From: Brachyspira hampsonii
GTDB lineage: Bacteria > Spirochaetota > Brachyspiria > Brachyspirales > Brachyspiraceae
DNA length: 64,000 bases
Reading direction: 5' to 3'
Assembly: GCF_002214805.1 (NCBI RefSeq)
Contig: NZ_CP019914.1
Coordinates: forward strand, 2,046,001 to 2,110,000
Every line of letters starts with the position of its first letter. The stretch's first letter is position 1. Below the pieces are notes generated by a model. The model was not told the DNA's origin, did no database searches, and saw only the letters and a list, made by a program, of their open reading frames with translations. A program made the translations under genes and the position numbers. Shown one piece after another: positions 4,118 through 44,178 of this stretch.

Positions 4118-4858
4118 TCACTCTGTTATATTTTGTTTTCTATTTATTAATATGTTTTTTATAGTATTCATTGTTTTTTCATCAAATATGTTTTCAGTTA
4201 TATTTCCTCTTTTTAATGAATCTATAAGATATTTATTTAAATTTATATCTTTATTGAGATTCTTTTCTTTAGCTATATAAACATAATTACACATAGATAA
4301 AATTATTCTAAGCTGATTTCCATCAGAAGAATACTTATCTATTAATTTCTGAGGTTCATCAATACCTAAACAACTTAAATTATAACAAACTTTAAAGAAA
4401 AGTTTATTAGTAACTTGTTTGATTTGGGTATCTTTTTTTACTTTTTTATTTATCGTATAGAGTATAGAAAAATCTCTAGCTTCAAAATTACATACAGCAG
4501 CATAAAATTTTTCCTGATAAGGCATAAGATAATGATGACTTTTTGCCTTAGATTCTACTCTAGTAATAAACCCCTTTTCTTCCAAAGCATCTAATGATTT
4601 AACTATAGTAGCATTTCCTCCTATACCTGCCTCATTTAATATTTGAGAATGAGTAGTTTTAGCTATGCCAAGTTCATAATCATAATTAGCAACTAAAGTT
4701 CTATATACTTCTTTAGCGGATAAAGGTAATTTTTTCCAAGTATTATTTTCTGTTATAGATTTTGGAATAAAAGAACACATTGATGCTATTGATAAAAATG
4801 TATCTTTATCTATCGTTTTTAATTGTGCTTTATTGATTATATCTAAAATGTTTTCCAA
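4118..4858 (-). CDS. Winged-helix protein, possibly replication-initiator or DnaD-like
   Basis: The protein is 246 residues, starting from TTG at 4858 with GGAG seven bases upstream. Residues 45-115 look like a winged helix: LPLSAKEVYRTLVANYDYELGIAKTTHSQILNEAGIG, then SLDALEEKGFITRVESKAK. This resembles the N-terminal DNA-binding domain of plasmid RepA-N or DnaD-type proteins and of MarR-like regulators. The C-terminal half is helical and lysine/asparagine rich. No enzymatic motif is seen. It is the first gene of a minus-strand cluster and is divergent from the 16S gene. Function is not assigned; replication, partition or transcriptional control are all possible. Confidence 0.6.
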   Translation of the reverse strand: MENILDIINKAQLKTIDKDTFLSIASMCSFIPKSITENNTWKKLPLSAKEVYRTLVANYDYELGIAKTTHSQILNEAGIGGNATIVKSLDALEEKGFITRVESKAKSHHYLMPYQEKFYAAVCNFEARDFSILYTINKKVKKDTQIKQVTNKLFFKVCYNLSCLGIDEPQKLIDKYSSDGNQLRIILSMCNYVYIAKEKNLNKDINLNKYLIDSLKRGNITENIFDEKTMNTIKNILINRKQNITE

Positions 4859-5198
4859 AATTCTACTCCAATATGTATATAATATATCTAAATCAATATA
4901 AAATCAAGTTTTAAAAAATATTTTGTTTATCTATTTTTTTAATATTCTATTCTATTAATTTGGGGTTTTTTTATCGGATTTGTTTTTATTAATTTTATTT
5001 TTGGTTTTTTTGTAATAAATTTCCAAAATAAGGATAAAAAAGCATAAAATTCCAATATTTTTGCTGTTTTTTAGGCTGTTTTCTTTTGAAAAAATTGTAA
5101 TATACTAAAAATCACCAAAAATAAGTATTATATGTATTATAAAATATATATTTTGATAAAAAAGATTGAAAAAATATAAAAAACGGTTTTATTTAGTA
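4859..5198. other. AT-rich intergenic region upstream of the 16S promoter
   Basis: About 340 bp are extremely AT rich with long A and T runs. I see no open frame with coding character and no tRNA. It presumably holds the promoter of the winged-helix gene and UP-element-like sequence for the rRNA promoter, but I cannot point to exact sites. Confidence 0.5.
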
Positions 5199-5226
5199 TT
5201 GTGTTTTTTTAGCTGTATGTTATAAT
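5199..5226 (+). promoter_or_regulatory. Probable 16S rRNA promoter
   Basis: TTGTGT (5199-5204) and TATAAT (5221-5226) are separated by 16 bp, with TGT directly before the -10 box (extended -10). Transcription would start near 5233, giving a leader of about 215 nt. The position is inferred from sequence only. Confidence 0.6.
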
Positions 5227-5234
5227 AATAAAAC

Positions 5235-5283
5235 AGTTGATGAGAAACAAAAAACATCAGCTAACAAAATGAAAGTTCTTTGA
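5235..5283 (+). promoter_or_regulatory. 16S leader: hairpin plus boxA-like element
   Basis: AGTTGATG (5235-5242) pairs with CATCAGCT (5255-5262) to make an 8-bp hairpin at the predicted 5' end of the transcript. GTTCTTTGA (5275-5283) resembles boxA antitermination sites of rRNA leaders. A second hairpin, ACTATTC/GAATAGT (5394-5411), lies closer to the mature 16S end. Confidence 0.45.
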
Positions 5284-5445
5284 AATATGGATAGCAGAAG
5301 CAATTTAAGAAAAACACAACTGGTGTAAGAACTTAGATTAAGTTCTATGACCCAATAGTTACAATTTGTAACATTTCTTTAAGTAAGTAAATCACTATTC
5401 AGTAGAATAGTAAAATAAAGAATCATTTCAGATTCACAAAAAGTG

Positions 5446-6960
<1,515 letters not shown>

Positions 6961-37408: not shown

Positions 37409-37436
37409 TTGATTATATAGAAAATTACTGTATAAT
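37409..37436 (+). promoter_or_regulatory. Promoter of the CHAT-amidase-rsmI operon
   Basis: TTGATT (37409-37414) and TATAAT (37431-37436) are separated by 16 bp, with TG directly before the -10 box. It lies 44 bp before the CHAT gene. Confidence 0.55.
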
Positions 37437-37479: not shown

Positions 37480-38805
37480 ATGGCATATAAATCATATATT
37501 ATAACTCAAAATAGAGAATACTTTTTATCTCATAGCATAGAATATATTTCTTTAAAAAATACTTCTGTAAAAAAGATTTTGAAAGCTATTAAAAAAGATG
37601 AAAGTTATATAAATATATTTTTATATGATAATGAAAAAAATAAATTATATGGTTATTATGAAATTGATTTAAATAATAAAAATAATGAAACATCAAGCAA
37701 AGACTATACAAATATTTATATAACTGATAATTATAAAAGAAGGCGAGGAATATATTATAAGTTAGAAGATAAGTATTCAGATTTTGCAATATATGAAATA
37801 GATTCTAAGACATTTTCCAAATTAAGAGATAGATTAATACTTTTAAATGATAATATTTCGCAGACATTTTTTTCATGTTCTATAAATGATAATATTTTCA
37901 AATATCAATCTGTAGAAACATATCCTTCTCTTTATGTGGCAGAATACGAAAAGCATTTTGATAATAAGGCTTATGAAAGTATATATAACGAATATCTTCG
38001 TTTATTAAAATATTCAAATAGCGAAAATAATAGTATAGACAGATATATAGAACTTGGAAGTTATTTAATGAATATGCTCTTTCCAGAAAAAGATTTCAGA
38101 GAACATTTGCTTGATGGATTTAGAATAGTTTATCTTAATCTTGACAATAAAGCATACAGCATTCCTTGGGATATACTTTCTTTTAATGGTAAATTTTTAT
38201 CCGAAAATATAATTTTTTCATATAATAATGCATCTAATGTTTTGCATAATAAGAAAATTGACAATAAAAAATTAAAGATGGCTATTATTTCAATACCAAA
38301 TGAAGATATTGTATATGATAAACAAGAGATAGATTCTATTTTGTCATTGCAAAATAATATAAAAAATATAGAAATAGATTTATATAAAAAAGAGCATAAT
38401 TATTTTGAGTTTGTTAAAATATTGGAAAGTTATGATATAGTGCATATTATCACTCATGGATATAAGGACGGAATAAAATTGAGTGAGGATTATATACTAA
38501 ATTCGGTAGCGGCATTACAAAATCCTCCTTCACTTATTTTTATTAATGCATGCAATATGGAAGAAGCTGATAACAAATTAACAAAATCACTTCTTTCTTC
38601 TGGGGTAAGCACAGTAATATCCGGTATTGGTTCTTTAGCCGATGGTATGTATTTAGATTTTATTTACAGTTTTTATAGTAATTTACTTCATAGGCATGCT
38701 AGAATAAATACAGCACAGGCATATTATTTTGCTTATGTAGAAGTTAAAGAATTCTATAAAGGGTTTATACGATATAGATTTAATGGAGTTCCTGTATATG
38801 TTTAA
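37480..38805 (+). CDS. CHAT-domain (caspase-like) putative cysteine protease
   Basis: This is a 441-residue soluble protein. The C-terminal half is a CHAT peptidase domain: AYSIPWDILSFNGKFLSE, the catalytic His in DIVHIITHG (His326), the catalytic Cys in LIFINACN (Cys358), GVSTVISGIGSLADGM and a terminal YRFNGVPVYV. Both residues of the dyad are present, so it should be an active protease. The N-terminal 190 residues match nothing I know and lack clear TPR repeats. CHAT proteases act in CRISPR type III-E, CBASS-like and other suicide systems. Here the partner is an amidase gene whose start lies inside its last codons. Native substrate unknown. Confidence 0.8.
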   Translation: MAYKSYIITQNREYFLSHSIEYISLKNTSVKKILKAIKKDESYINIFLYDNEKNKLYGYYEIDLNNKNNETSSKDYTNIYITDNYKRRRGIYYKLEDKYSDFAIYEIDSKTFSKLRDRLILLNDNISQTFFSCSINDNIFKYQSVETYPSLYVAEYEKHFDNKAYESIYNEYLRLLKYSNSENNSIDRYIELGSYLMNMLFPEKDFREHLLDGFRIVYLNLDNKAYSIPWDILSFNGKFLSENIIFSYNNASNVLHNKKIDNKKLKMAIISIPNEDIVYDKQEIDSILSLQNNIKNIEIDLYKKEHNYFEFVKILESYDIVHIITHGYKDGIKLSEDYILNSVAALQNPPSLIFINACNMEEADNKLTKSLLSSGVSTVISGIGSLADGMYLDFIYSFYSNLLHRHARINTAQAYYFAYVEVKEFYKGFIRYRFNGVPVYV

Positions 38806-39826
38806 ATTTATCAGATTTATTTATTTATTGGTAATAATAATAGCATTTACATCTTGTAATGATGAGAATATAACACCTATAAGAACTAGGAAAATAGCTC
38901 CTAAGGTTTCAAGTGCTTTTAAATCTCCTGCATATAATTTAAGAATAAAATATATTATACTTCATTATACCGCTTTAAATGATGATTTATCTTTTAAGGT
39001 ATTAACTGATCCGGGTGTATCTGCACATTATCTTATAACTACAAAAAAAGATGAGCCTATATATAAACTTGTTGATGATAATGACAGAGCTTGGCATGCG
39101 GGGGTTACTATGTTTGATAACAGACTTACTATGAATGATACTTCTATTGGTATAGAAATAGTAAATTTAGGATTTCTAAGAAAGGTTACAAATACTTATG
39201 AAGATTTAAGAAGAATGACAAAAAAACAAAGAGAAGATTTATTTTTTATTCCTTATGATGAGTATATAGAATTTGAGGAGAGCCAGATAGAAAAGGTGGC
39301 ATATTTGCTTAAAGAGTTAACAGAGAAATATGGAATAAAGCCTTATAATATATTGGGGCATTCGGATATAGCTCCATATAGGAAAAAAGACCCAGGACCT
39401 AAATTCCCATGGAAAAGACTTCATGATGAATATAATTTAGGTATGTGGTATGATGAGTATGATTACAGCAACTTTTTAAATGATAATGAATATAGAAAAG
39501 CAAAAGTAATGGATATAAAAGAAGAGTTTATAAAATACGGATATACAAGTATGCCTACAAATAATGTTTGGGATTTTGATTCCAGAAAGGTGCTTTATGC
39601 TTTTCAATGTCATTTCCGACCTGAAAAAATAGATGGAAATATTGATAATGAAACTTATGCTGTTATTAGAGCTTTAAATCTTAAAGTTAAGAAGATTAAT
39701 GAAATGGAAGAGCGTTCTAAAGCTAATAACTTCCTTACTAATACATTCTTTACTAATATATTTATAAGCAATAACATAATAAACACAAATTGGAGTTACA
39801 ATACAAATACTTCATTAAGGAAATAG
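38798..39826 (+). CDS. N-acetylmuramoyl-L-alanine amidase lipoprotein (AmiD-like)
   Basis: I start it at ATG 38798, where a compact lipoprotein signal (FKFIRFIYLLVIIIAFTSC) begins; GGAG is nine bases upstream, inside the CHAT gene, and the two frames overlap by eight bases. The amidase_2 domain has zinc ligands in IILHYTAL, RAWHAG and ILGHSDIAPYRKKDPGP. A C-terminal peptidoglycan-binding-1 domain follows: SRKVLYAFQCHFRPEKIDG then NIDNETYAVI. This layout matches E. coli AmiD, an outer-membrane amidase that cleaves muropeptides. The asparagine-rich tail is low complexity. Confidence 0.88.
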   Translation: MFKFIRFIYLLVIIIAFTSCNDENITPIRTRKIAPKVSSAFKSPAYNLRIKYIILHYTALNDDLSFKVLTDPGVSAHYLITTKKDEPIYKLVDDNDRAWHAGVTMFDNRLTMNDTSIGIEIVNLGFLRKVTNTYEDLRRMTKKQREDLFFIPYDEYIEFEESQIEKVAYLLKELTEKYGIKPYNILGHSDIAPYRKKDPGPKFPWKRLHDEYNLGMWYDEYDYSNFLNDNEYRKAKVMDIKEEFIKYGYTSMPTNNVWDFDSRKVLYAFQCHFRPEKIDGNIDNETYAVIRALNLKVKKINEMEERSKANNFLTNTFFTNIFISNNIINTNWSYNTNTSLRK

Positions 39827-39834
39827 GATTATAT

Positions 39835-40509
39835 ATGCTTACTGTTTACATTGCTGCAAGAGATATAGGGAATTACAAAGATAATACTGAAAGATTAAAG
39901 GAAGTTTTAATTGAAAGTGATATTGTTTTAGTTGAAAGTTTTAGAGAAGCTACAACTCTTTTTAAAGTACTTAATATAGATAAAAACAAAGAATGTTTAA
40001 TAGAGTTTAGCGAACACACAAAAAAATCTAAAGATATTGATGAAATAATTACAAAGATTATAAACTGTAAAACGGTTACTCTTATAAGTGATTGCGGCAC
40101 TCCTATATTGGAAGATCCGGGAAGGCTTTTGCTTGAGTATTGTTATTCTCATAATATAAGGGTTCGTCCTATAGCAGGTGTAAGCAGTGTTACAGCAGCT
40201 ATTATGTGTCTGCCTTTTAATTTCAAAGAATTTTATTATGCTGGGCTTTTGCCGCGTGATGACAGAGAACGTGAAAAAAAATTATTATATTTAAAAAGAT
40301 TAAATGTGCCTATTATAATATTAGATACTCCATACAGATTAGGGAAAGTTCTTAATGCAATCAGAAAAGTGTATTCAAAAGATAAAGAAATAGCACTATG
40401 TTTAGATATTACAACCGAAAGAGAAGAAATTATTATAGATAGAGTATCAGATATATATAATAAATATCAGGACAGCAAAAAAAGAGAATTTGTTATTGTT
40501 ATAAGCTAA
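39835..40509 (+). CDS. RsmI-like 16S rRNA 2'-O-methyltransferase (divergent)
   Basis: I start it at ATG 39835 (224 residues), eight bases after the amidase stop, with AGGA upstream. It has the tetrapyrrole-methylase fold seen in RsmI: LISDCGTPILEDPGRLLLEYC and VRPIAGVSSVTAAIMCL are good matches, as is IILDTPYRL. The usual N-terminal TPIGNL and EDTR motifs are altered to ARDIGNYKD and ESFREAT, so it may be a paralogue with another target. RsmI methylates C1402 of 16S rRNA. It closes the CHAT-amidase transcript. Confidence 0.72.
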   Translation: MLTVYIAARDIGNYKDNTERLKEVLIESDIVLVESFREATTLFKVLNIDKNKECLIEFSEHTKKSKDIDEIITKIINCKTVTLISDCGTPILEDPGRLLLEYCYSHNIRVRPIAGVSSVTAAIMCLPFNFKEFYYAGLLPRDDREREKKLLYLKRLNVPIIILDTPYRLGKVLNAIRKVYSKDKEIALCLDITTEREEIIIDRVSDIYNKYQDSKKREFVIVIS

Positions 40510-40865: not shown

Positions 40866-41762
40866 CTATATTATCACATCGTAAATATTTCTAGTTTCAA
40901 GAACTTTTACTCCAACTTCATATTCACGCATATATTTAGCAAGTCTGTATCCGTTTATCAGAATTATTTTTACATCTTTTAATTCTTCTACAACCTTCTT
41001 AGCCTGCGGAGTATAATCTGAAGTAGTTATAAAAATTCCTCTGTTTATGCCATTAACATTTTTAAGCCCATGAGCAAATTTTGTTATTTCAGTATCATTA
41101 ACTTTATTATTTTCTTTATAGCATTTGCATTGTACACCTATCATATCAAAACCGAATTTATCCATAGTAAGAGTACCGTCAATTCCTCTGTCTCCGCTTC
41201 CGCCTGTTCTGTACTTCTTACCGTATCCCATTTTCTCAAGCAGTTCCAAACATATATTTTCAAATTTAGTGCCTTTATCAACAGAGCTTTCACCCATATA
41301 CTGAAGCCTGTCAAGTATATCTTTCTCTACGCTTTCATAATACTCTTCTATGCTTTTTTCTATCTCGTTTCTATTTTCATCTTCTTCTGCTTCTTCTATT
41401 TCGTCAATATCATAATTTGAATTATTTTTGCTGTTTTCTAAATAAGGCGTTTTTTCTTTTAATGTTTTTAAATCAAAGTTAGGGTTTTCTTCATAGAATT
41501 TTTTACCGAAGTCAGTTATTTGATATACTCCCTTATCGGTGTTTTCTATTAACTGAGCTTTTTTTAAAACAACTAAAGACCAATGAATTCTAGAATTAAA
41601 TTTATTATATCCATTTTTTGTTATCAAATTAAAGTCTTCATCAGATGTGTTGGTATACTCTTTTAATTTGCTGTATGTATCTTTTCTATGTGCTGGTCTA
41701 TTTATGTCATAAAAAAATTTTAATACATATTTATCATAATCTCTATATTTTAAAAGTGCCAT
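40866..41762 (-). CDS. Mrr-family restriction endonuclease-like protein
   Basis: The 298 residues have the two-domain Mrr layout. The N-terminal winged helix (VLKFFYDINRPAHRKDTYSKL; VVLKKAQLIENTDKGVYQITDFGKKF) covers about 10-95, then comes an acidic linker with many Glu. The C-terminal Mrr_cat PD-(D/E)XK nuclease contains FENICLELLEKMGY, GDRGIDGTL and VQCKCYKE (Asp and QxK active-site residues), then GIFITTSDYTPQAKKVVEE and LINGYRLAKYM. Mrr nucleases cut methylated DNA or act under stress. No methyltransferase is beside it, fitting a type IV-like enzyme. It lies between palindromic elements B and C, and a 3' fragment is duplicated at 31834-32173. Confidence 0.85.
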   Translation of the reverse strand: MALLKYRDYDKYVLKFFYDINRPAHRKDTYSKLKEYTNTSDEDFNLITKNGYNKFNSRIHWSLVVLKKAQLIENTDKGVYQITDFGKKFYEENPNFDLKTLKEKTPYLENSKNNSNYDIDEIEEAEEDENRNEIEKSIEEYYESVEKDILDRLQYMGESSVDKGTKFENICLELLEKMGYGKKYRTGGSGDRGIDGTLTMDKFGFDMIGVQCKCYKENNKVNDTEITKFAHGLKNVNGINRGIFITTSDYTPQAKKVVEELKDVKIILINGYRLAKYMREYEVGVKVLETRNIYDVII

Positions 41763-42354: not shown

Positions 42355-44178
42355 ATGAAATACAAACCGCAAACAAGAGAAGAATTACAAAAGTTAGTGC
42401 AAGATGAAAACATATATTTGGGTGATATTGATACTAGTTTAATAAAAGATATGATAAGGTTATTTGAAAATAGTAATAGAGAAAATTTTGATGGAATTGA
42501 AACTTGGGATACTTCTAATGTTACAGATATGTCAGATATGTTTATGGGAGCTGTAAACTTTAATTCAAATATAAATAATTGGAATGTTTCAAAAGTTACT
42601 AATATGTTCGGGATATTTTAAAGTGCTAAAAACTTTAATCAGCCATTAAATGAGTGGAATGTATCTAATGTAACAAATATGGAATTTATGTTTTCTGAAG
42701 CTCAAAATTTTAATCAGCCTTTAGACAAATGGAACACTTCTAAAGTTATTAGTATGAGATGTATGTTTTATAAAGCTGTAAATTTTAATCAGAATTTAAA
42801 TAATTGGGATACTTCTAATGTAAAAAATATGAAGAGTATGTTTTCAAAGGCTTATAATTTTAATCAGTCTCTTAATAATTGGAATGTCAGCAAAACAGAA
42901 AAAATGCTCGGTATGTTTGAGAATGCTTATAACTTTAATCAGCCGCTTGATAAATGGGATACATCTAATGTTTTATATATGAACTATATGTTTTTTAATG
43001 CTAAAAGTTTTAATCAGGATATTGGAAACTGGAATGTTTTTAATGCAATTAGTATGTCATATATGTTTAGTGGTGCGGAGAGTTTTAATCATTCTATAGA
43101 AAATTGGATTATTAATGAAGCTTGTTTTATGAAGGAGTTTTTTTCGGGTGCTTCTTCTTTTAAGAATGTGAAGTCTATATTAAATATTTATTTTCTTTCC
43201 AAAGGAAGTGATAGAAAAAAACTTTTATTAATGCTTGAAAACTGCGATATAAAAGAAGTGTATAAAGAAGTTCTAAAATATAATAAACTTAAAGATTTTA
43301 CAAAAAAGTTAGAGAATGTTTATTATGAAGAATTAAAAGAATTAATTGATAATAAAGAAGATATTATAAAAGAATACAAAAAATTAAAGGCTAATAATAT
43401 CAAATTAAAAGAAAATGAAAAATATCAACCTAAAGATAAAATAGAATTATTAAAATTAATAAAAGAAAAAGTAAAATTGAATAAAATAGATACTAGCCTA
43501 ATAACTGACATGTCTGGATTATTTCAAAACTCAAAACTTAAAAAATTTGACGGCATTGAAACTTGGGACACTTCAAATGTTGAAGATATGCATAACATAT
43601 TTAGAGGAGCTATATATTTTAATCATAATATAGAAAATTGGAATGTATCTAATGTTATTAATATGGAATATATGTTTTCAGGCTGTACTAGATTTAATCA
43701 GCCTCTTAATAATTGGGACGTTTCTAATGTAAAGTATATGAGTTTTATGTTTTCAGATTGTGAAAGTTTTGACAGTGATTTAAGCAGATGGAATACATCT
43801 AATGTAGAAATAATGGCCTTTATGTTTAAAAGTGCATATTCTTTTAATCAGGATATTTCTAAATGGAATGTAAGCAAAGTAAAATATACTGATGCTATGT
43901 TTAAAGATGCTAAGAGTTTTAATCAGCCTTTAAATGATTGGGATATGAGTAATATTGAATCTATAAGTGGAATGTTTCATAGTGCTTCAAACTTTAATCA
44001 GCCTTTAGATAAATGGAAGCTATCTAATATTAAAAATATATCATTTGCATTTTATAACTGCTCAAGTTTTAATCAGGATTTAGAATCTTGGAAATTGTCA
44101 AATGAGGTTAATATGAAATATGCTTTTTCAGATTCGCTTGTAGAAAAACATGAACCTTCTTGGTATATAGAAAATTAA
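42355..44178 (+). pseudogene. BspA-like (DUF285) repeat protein gene with one in-frame stop
   Basis: A 608-codon frame is broken only by TAA at 42619-42621, where the repeat reads MFGIF-stop-SAKNFNQPL. The stop falls at a variable position of the repeat, so one base change explains it. The protein is made of about 25-residue units of the type NWDTSNVxxMxxMFxxAxxFNQPL, the BspA/DUF285 family often linked to surface proteins. Two repeat blocks, each introduced by the same capping segment (FDGIETWDTSNV), flank a lysine-rich helical linker near residues 275-355. No signal peptide is seen. An internal ATG at 42679 could give a 499-residue product. No clear Shine-Dalgarno precedes 42355. Confidence 0.8.

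Follow-up and report, generated by a model that had tools for sequence, protein, structure and literature searches.

In defence systems, the SAVED domain senses cyclic oligonucleotides, and in SAVED-CHAT proteins such a sensor domain is fused to a CHAT domain. In the Craspase (CASP) system, which contains the TPR-CHAT protein Csx29, Cas7-11, Csx30 and CASP-sigma, the CHAT protease cleaves a sigma inhibitor after RNA recognition, with Csx29 and Csx30 as the precedent for such control (PMC10028731). This was the one paper found in the literature in which a CHAT domain and an ECF sigma factor occur together. A domain resembling CHAT also forms the C-terminal part of the transmembrane anti-sigma factor DdvA (PDB 8rot, 8rw5). 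Bell, Wolf and Koonin predicted in 2020 that prokaryotic DCD and EVE domains bind modified bases, and listed McrB-like, PD-(D/E)XK and methyltransferase domains as fusion partners of DCD; the main text of that study makes no mention of CHAT (PMC7641849).

Here we describe a locus in a window of Brachyspira hampsonii DNA (the whole stretch that was analysed, 64,000 nucleotides), in which the gene for a CHAT-family protein overlaps the gene for an AmiD-type amidase. Our preferred reading, held tentatively at a probability of about 0.45, is that the protein is a latent cytoplasmic regulatory protease of caspase fold, gated by nucleic acid, which ancestrally cleaved an anti-sigma factor and in Brachyspira has become coupled to an envelope amidase. 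It resembles Craspase in its CHAT fold and in the operons of its relatives, which pair CHAT with a sigma factor and an inhibitor. On the other hand, its sensor would be a built-in DCD/EVE/YTH-type domain instead of a TPR bound to a CRISPR effector, its gene partner in Brachyspira is an envelope amidase, and gating by nucleic acid, which was shown for Craspase, is here a prediction. No cas gene was recognised among the window neighbours scanned. Our literature search returned no published account of a fusion between a DCD/EVE/YTH-type domain and CHAT, and no paper pairing Brachyspira with a CHAT domain or a CHAT protease with an amidase. The combination of a DCD/EVE/YTH-type domain with CHAT appears to be a new architectural variant among CHAT protease systems.

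Results

A CHAT-family protein with a predicted reader-type domain

The CHAT gene (37480..38805, + strand) is single copy and encodes a cysteine protease homologue of 441 amino acids in which no signal peptide was seen. Residues 196-409 matched Pfam CHAT (PF12770) with an E value of 7.9e-10 and 39.1 bits against a cut-off of 24, and the same profile was matched by 17/17 orthologues. The catalytic-type dyad claimed in the earlier note was confirmed by alignment: His326 (codon 38455..38457, +) and Cys358 (codon 38551..38553, +) were invariant in 25/25 Brachyspiraceae orthologues, and the corresponding His and Cys in 29/29 aligned spirochaetal CHAT proteins. Because a PDB sequence search with the CHAT or the N-terminal profile gave nothing meaningful, folds were compared instead. 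The AF2 model of the full-length protein had a mean pLDDT of 75.7 and a pTM of 0.47, and its C-terminal part resembled CHAT, separase and caspase structures in both Foldseek and VIA. The best structural match of the CHAT domain (residues 196-441; 38065..38802, +), as delimited by Pfam and VIA fold comparison, was SAVED-CHAT 8tl0 (VIA Z 17.8, rmsd 2.6, 169 aligned; Foldseek E 1.7e-8), the closest solved CHAT fold and likewise a fusion with a sensor domain; DdvA 8rw5 (Z 15.2, rmsd 2.8, 163 aligned), separase (Z about 14) and Csx29 (Z 13.1) were also matched. DdvA carries its CHAT-like domain within the anti-sigma factor, whereas the Brachyspira protease and anti-sigma homologue are separate proteins. 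By profile, dyad and caspase/separase-type fold, the window gene is a member of the CHAT family, and its product would be an active protease.

The earlier note had overlooked both the N-terminal domain of this protein and the sigma/anti-sigma operons of its relatives. The N-terminal domain (residues 1-126; 37480..37857, +) was delimited from the AF2 model, VIA and sub-threshold Pfam DCD matches, and is joined to CHAT by a linker (residues 127-195; 37858..38064, +) of beta strands and helices in the AF2 secondary structure. When folded alone with 14 relatives, the domain reached a pLDDT of 83 and a pTM of 0.79 (AF2). The best 50 VIA matches listed (Z 8.3-10.4, with 106-124 of the 132 residues aligned) were YTH or EVE chains; the top match had a Z of 10.4, an rmsd of 3.4 and 123 aligned residues. 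In Foldseek, the best 20 matches listed were all YTH domains (E 2.8e-3 to 2e-2). Pfam DCD was matched below threshold in 13/17 orthologues (best E 0.0036), and no member reached the Pfam cut-off for PF10539 or PF01878. Since all Pfam matches were sub-threshold, we call the domain DCD/EVE/YTH-type and do not file it as a member of Pfam DCD. Its likeness to the DCD/EVE/YTH readers thus lies in the fold and in sub-threshold DCD and EVE profile matches. As modelled, residues 1-126 share the fold of modified-base readers of the PUA-like DCD/EVE/YTH superfamily and are fused to CHAT. A domain of this fold would be expected to bind nucleic acid; its likely ligand is a base in RNA, whether modified or not. 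Compared with SAVED-CHAT, the Brachyspira protein differs in the YTH/EVE fold of its sensor-type domain and in being encoded by a core gene.

An overlapping amidase gene and its surroundings

The second gene (38798..39826, +) encodes an AmiD/AmpDh2-type lipoprotein N-acetylmuramoyl-L-alanine amidase of 342 aa, or of 347 aa when read from 38783. The product matched Amidase_2 (PF01510) with an E value of 8.5e-28 and 97.7 bits against a cut-off of 26, and its profile matched the structures of AmpDh2, AmpDh3 and AmiD with E values of 2e-58 to 6e-52. Residues H61, H82, E125, H193, K201 and D203 (347-aa numbering) were invariant; of these, we take H61, E125, H193, K201 and D203 to be the equivalents of AmiD zinc ligands or catalytic residues. 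Profile and conserved residues assign the protein to the AmiD/AmpD-type family. It is a clear relative of AmiD, AmpDh2 and AmpDh3, with a C-terminal peptidoglycan-binding domain (PG_binding_1; 39500..39664, +; Pfam E 1.4e-4, slightly short of the cut-off) and a signal-peptide cysteine (lipobox FTS-C, codon 38855..38857, +). Signal peptide and cysteine were found in nearly all orthologues. The exception was the amidase of genome G001 (L052), whose hydrophobic N-terminus has no lipobox cysteine, so that it may be membrane-anchored and not a lipoprotein. We know of no AmiD/AmpDh relative that is coupled to a protease gene.

The amidase gene had been said to start within the last codons of the CHAT gene. 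The overlap is real, and its start was corrected: 38783 is merely the start of the longest open reading frame, whereas ATG 38798 is conserved across the genus and gives an overlap of 8 nt, ATGTTTAA, with the CHAT gene. A Shine-Dalgarno-like GGAG (38785..38788, +) lies inside the CHAT 3' end, 9 nt upstream of this ATG; it was conserved in the overlapping genomes, with GGGG in G019, and the two non-overlapping genomes had other Gly codons (GGT, GGC) at its position. The overlap suggests that translation of CHAT and amidase may be coupled. A putative sigma70-type promoter, TTGATT-16-TATAAT (37409..37436, +), was found at a distance of about 45-70 nt ahead of the CHAT start codon, within a block, ATTTGATTATATA..ATTACTATATAATA, common to 15 aligned Brachyspira upstream regions. 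It was among the best scan scores (10/12), but the region as a whole gave no more hits than expected by chance; only the conservation of the block across species was used. Downstream, an rsmI-like gene (39835..40509, +) for a 16S rRNA C1402 2'-O-methyltransferase (TIGR00096 E 3e-40, below its cut-off) is probably the third gene of the operon and adjoins the pair in hyodysenteriae-type and pilosicoli-type genomes only. No Rfam match to a structured RNA was obtained close to the locus.

The pair is a vertically inherited core locus

CHAT and amidase were each present as a single copy in 26/29 genomes of the family, and these were the same 26. Of the three genomes without the pair, two are incompletely assembled (86-88%); the third, G026, is a near-complete genome of the sister genus in which both genes were missing. 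The overlap was kept in the genus genomes in which both genes were found. In the sister genus, the genes were adjacent in the sole genome having both; in G027, they lay about 30 nt apart and did not overlap, and in G028, of a third genus, they were unlinked on different contigs. Both genes evolved under purifying selection (dN/dS 0.05-0.14 for CHAT, 0.04-0.14 for amidase), and their distance matrices were correlated (r 0.95), as expected under vertical descent. Conservation together with purifying selection indicates that the pairing is more than chance. No match to phages or plasmids was found by tblastn, and a mobile or phage origin was rejected on this search; neither gene matched PADLOC-DB up to E 1, so that a known defence system was also rejected. 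Searched at E 1e-20 against 296 genomes, the profile of the amidase matched no more than two spirochaetes beyond the family. The pair belongs to the core genome of Brachyspira: it is present once per genome, evolves slowly and is passed on vertically. The earlier note had made its proposal hang on conservation across genomes, and this is borne out in 26/29 family genomes, with adjacency kept despite changes of the flanks; the amidase gene does not usually stand alone.

The main rival to our reading is that the two genes share a transcript only, the protease being an independent regulator, the amidase a housekeeping wall enzyme and the overlap a product of genome compaction. We consider this rather unlikely, although several observations agree with it. 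The products belong to different compartments, and in many genomes rsmI follows as closely as the amidase gene does. Besides the unlinked genes of G028, the CHAT gene of G015 was interrupted while its amidase gene was intact: about 50 nt after codon 28 were replaced by about 437 nt, and one further base was deleted, with no sign of relaxed selection in this CHAT gene. G277 had the amidase without a CHAT match; conversely, two genomes of the sister family f2 encoded a protease of the same architecture and no amidase homologue. However, the pair is the only adjacency that was seen to persist when both flanks change (G001, G019 and G027), and it also persisted in the pilosicoli group, whose upstream flank is different and which retains rsmI downstream. 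The conservation of the overlap and of the Shine-Dalgarno-like motif, as well as the joint absence of both genes in G026, also argues against mere sharing of a transcript.

Relatives are encoded beside sigma-like genes

To find relatives outside Brachyspiraceae, the profile of the whole protein was searched across the phylum. Besides the f2 proteins, the same architecture in more divergent form was present in f5, in f24 and in one long-branch protein of f22. The N-terminal profiles of f5/f24 and f1/f2 aligned with each other (hhalign 95.8%, E 7.5e-9), and f5/f24 members independently matched Pfam DCD in 4/6 cases (best 6e-4) and EVE in 1/6 (2e-4). In six f5/f24 genomes, the gene order was tsaE, tsaB, DCD-CHAT and sigma-like gene, and a zf-HC2-type anti-sigma gene came next in the five genomes whose contig reached far enough. 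The tsaE-tsaB genes, of t6A tRNA modification, lie directly upstream of DCD-CHAT (L121, L123, L179, L180, L181, L189); TsaE and TsaB were confirmed by Pfam in two genomes and recognised in the others by sequence likeness. In f6 (Leptospira-type), a sigma-like gene of the same family and a short gene were followed by a CHAT gene without the N-terminal domain and by a gene for a CxxCC protein. The f31 CHAT protein also lacks the N-terminal domain; its gene was followed by that for a CxxCC protein and then by tsaC/Sua5 (Sua5/YrdC), two genes downstream of CHAT (L116-L119). An M23 peptidase gene is divergent from the f6 sigma gene (L182 and L184; by eye also L168, L183, L185 and L126), and in these Leptospira-type genomes a peptidoglycan hydrolase is again found beside a CHAT system.

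Linkage of CHAT to a sigma factor and its inhibitor was observed in f5, f24 and f6 relatives and not in Brachyspira, where the sigma/anti-sigma pair is single copy and lies elsewhere. Each f1/f2 genome searched had one copy of the sigma-like gene, which was followed by an anti-sigma homologue in the f1/f2 genomes examined; in Brachyspiraceae, this homologue has lost the zinc-finger cysteines. An atypical ECF-like sigma gene with its anti-sigma homologue was located downstream of a DciA-like gene (L159 6637-8020, - strand, corresponding to G000:C1 about 2648637-2650020); the anti-sigma homologue occupies about 2648637-2649137 of this stretch, also on the - strand. We make the sigma assignment with moderate confidence, from the neighbouring zf-HC2 gene and from sub-threshold matches to Sigma70_r2 (best E 0.0012, in two members) and to region 4 (in one member); the comparison with region 4 of ECF SigH gave an E value of 0.65. 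G026 keeps sigma and anti-sigma without CHAT and amidase, which speaks against strict dependence. Outside f1/f2, 49 genomes had both short CHAT and sigma, 32 sigma only, 10 CHAT only and 271 neither, in hand-assembled counts over genomes that are phylogenetically non-independent. The linker of the anti-sigma factor contains a conserved R-G (the R is shared by most of the 16 aligned), which was considered as a cleavage site; it is suggestive and too weak to claim. In G015 (Brachyspira sp. G79), the sigma gene (L177 7271-8190) has six one-base deletions relative to a relative, five of them in A runs; since these frameshifts are likely sequencing errors, a joint decay of CHAT and sigma in this genome was rejected and not used.

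From the t6A genes a more specific mechanism can be drawn, to which we give a low probability. The N-terminal domain of an epitranscriptome-gated caspase would read a base of tRNA or rRNA that is modified (e.g. t6A) or absent, CHAT would cleave the anti-sigma factor, and stress transcription would follow; Brachyspira would have rewired this response to peptidoglycan turnover through the amidase. The t6A idea is based on tsaE-tsaB upstream of DCD-CHAT in f5/f24 and on tsaC downstream of CHAT in f31.

Discussion

Under our preferred reading, that of a latent regulatory protease, binding of nucleic acid by the N-terminal domain would switch on the CHAT domain. The ancestral task would most likely be cleavage of an anti-sigma factor, as Craspase cleaves Csx30, because the relatives are encoded with ECF-like sigma and anti-sigma genes. 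In Brachyspira, the protease gene lies outside such an operon and is coupled to the AmiD-type amidase gene. The sigma role of the relatives may extend to the Brachyspira protease, but it counts against this reading that its gene and the sigma pair are not linked. A further point against it is that proteolysis itself, as we picture it, gives the amidase no part. The link of the amidase to the protease would probably consist in coordinated expression of an envelope-maintenance enzyme and a stress-signalling protease, and co-regulated envelope maintenance is our best guess for what it contributes. The constitutive-looking promoter, the sensor-type domain joined to a caspase fold, the invariant dyad, the slow evolution and the sigma/anti-sigma neighbours of the relatives are all more in keeping with a latent regulatory protease than with a toxin.

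Anti-phage defence, in which the domain would recognise modified phage DNA or RNA and CHAT would abort infection, is improbable. Prokaryotic DCD and EVE domains have been tied to restriction of modified DNA (PMC7641849), and a gene for an Mrr-type type IV restriction enzyme lies at 40866-41762. However, the CHAT gene is a slowly evolving core gene that occurs once in each genome, the Mrr gene does not always adjoin the pair, CHAT and amidase have no match in the defence library, and the relatives adjoin sigma and t6A genes. Also improbable is a lysis or programmed-cell-death module, along the lines of the lysis proposal in the earlier note, in which activated CHAT would kill the cell and the co-translated amidase would degrade the wall. 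In its favour, the genes for a caspase-fold protease and a peptidoglycan hydrolase appear to form one translational unit and are jointly absent in G026, CHAT proteases are immune-active elsewhere (e.g. SAVED-CHAT 8tl0) and this type of N-terminal domain has been tied to cell death (PMC7641849). Against it, both are core genes present once per genome, vertically inherited (r 0.95) and strongly constrained by purifying selection, behind a conserved sigma70-like promoter block and without phage, plasmid or PADLOC matches. The two products act in separate compartments, and nothing points to a step that would release either of them; the amidase is of AmpDh2/AmiD type, and no holin-like partner was noticed. 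Moreover, f2 proteases occur without amidase, and the amidase is intact where CHAT is disrupted (G015). A signalling protease is more likely than a suicide device because of the reader-type fold of the N-terminal domain and because the relatives sit in sigma/anti-sigma operons. Of the "lysis or stress module" that had been suggested, the lysis half is not supported, nor is an immune module, and a stress or regulatory role, not that of a dedicated suicide module, is plausible.

If our reading of a regulatory protease is true, a CHAT protease equipped with a domain of modified-base-reader type would do in one protein what Craspase does as a complex, and it would be a core gene of a whole genus, as opposed to the scattered occurrence of defence islands. 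Proteolysis would then make the control of a sigma factor depend on the modification state of nucleic acid, and a bacterial setting would be at hand for the link that has been suspected between DCD/EVE domains and proteases of caspase type.

Several genes near these loci were recorded in addition. The Mrr-type gene of the window (40866-41762, - strand; Pfam Mrr_cat E 1.1e-28, PADLOC mREase_IV E 7e-39) is close to the pair in some Brachyspira genomes and elsewhere or split in others. A DUF285 repeat protein is encoded at 42679-44178 (+ strand; E 5.5e-139), and its gene adjoins the pair in some genomes and is absent in others. In L117, E2-like, ThiF/E1-like and JAB-like open reading frames stand in a row (4325-6388, + strand) just upstream of pdxJ and the CHAT gene, and by-eye reading of their motifs suggests a possible cluster of ubiquitin-like conjugation genes.
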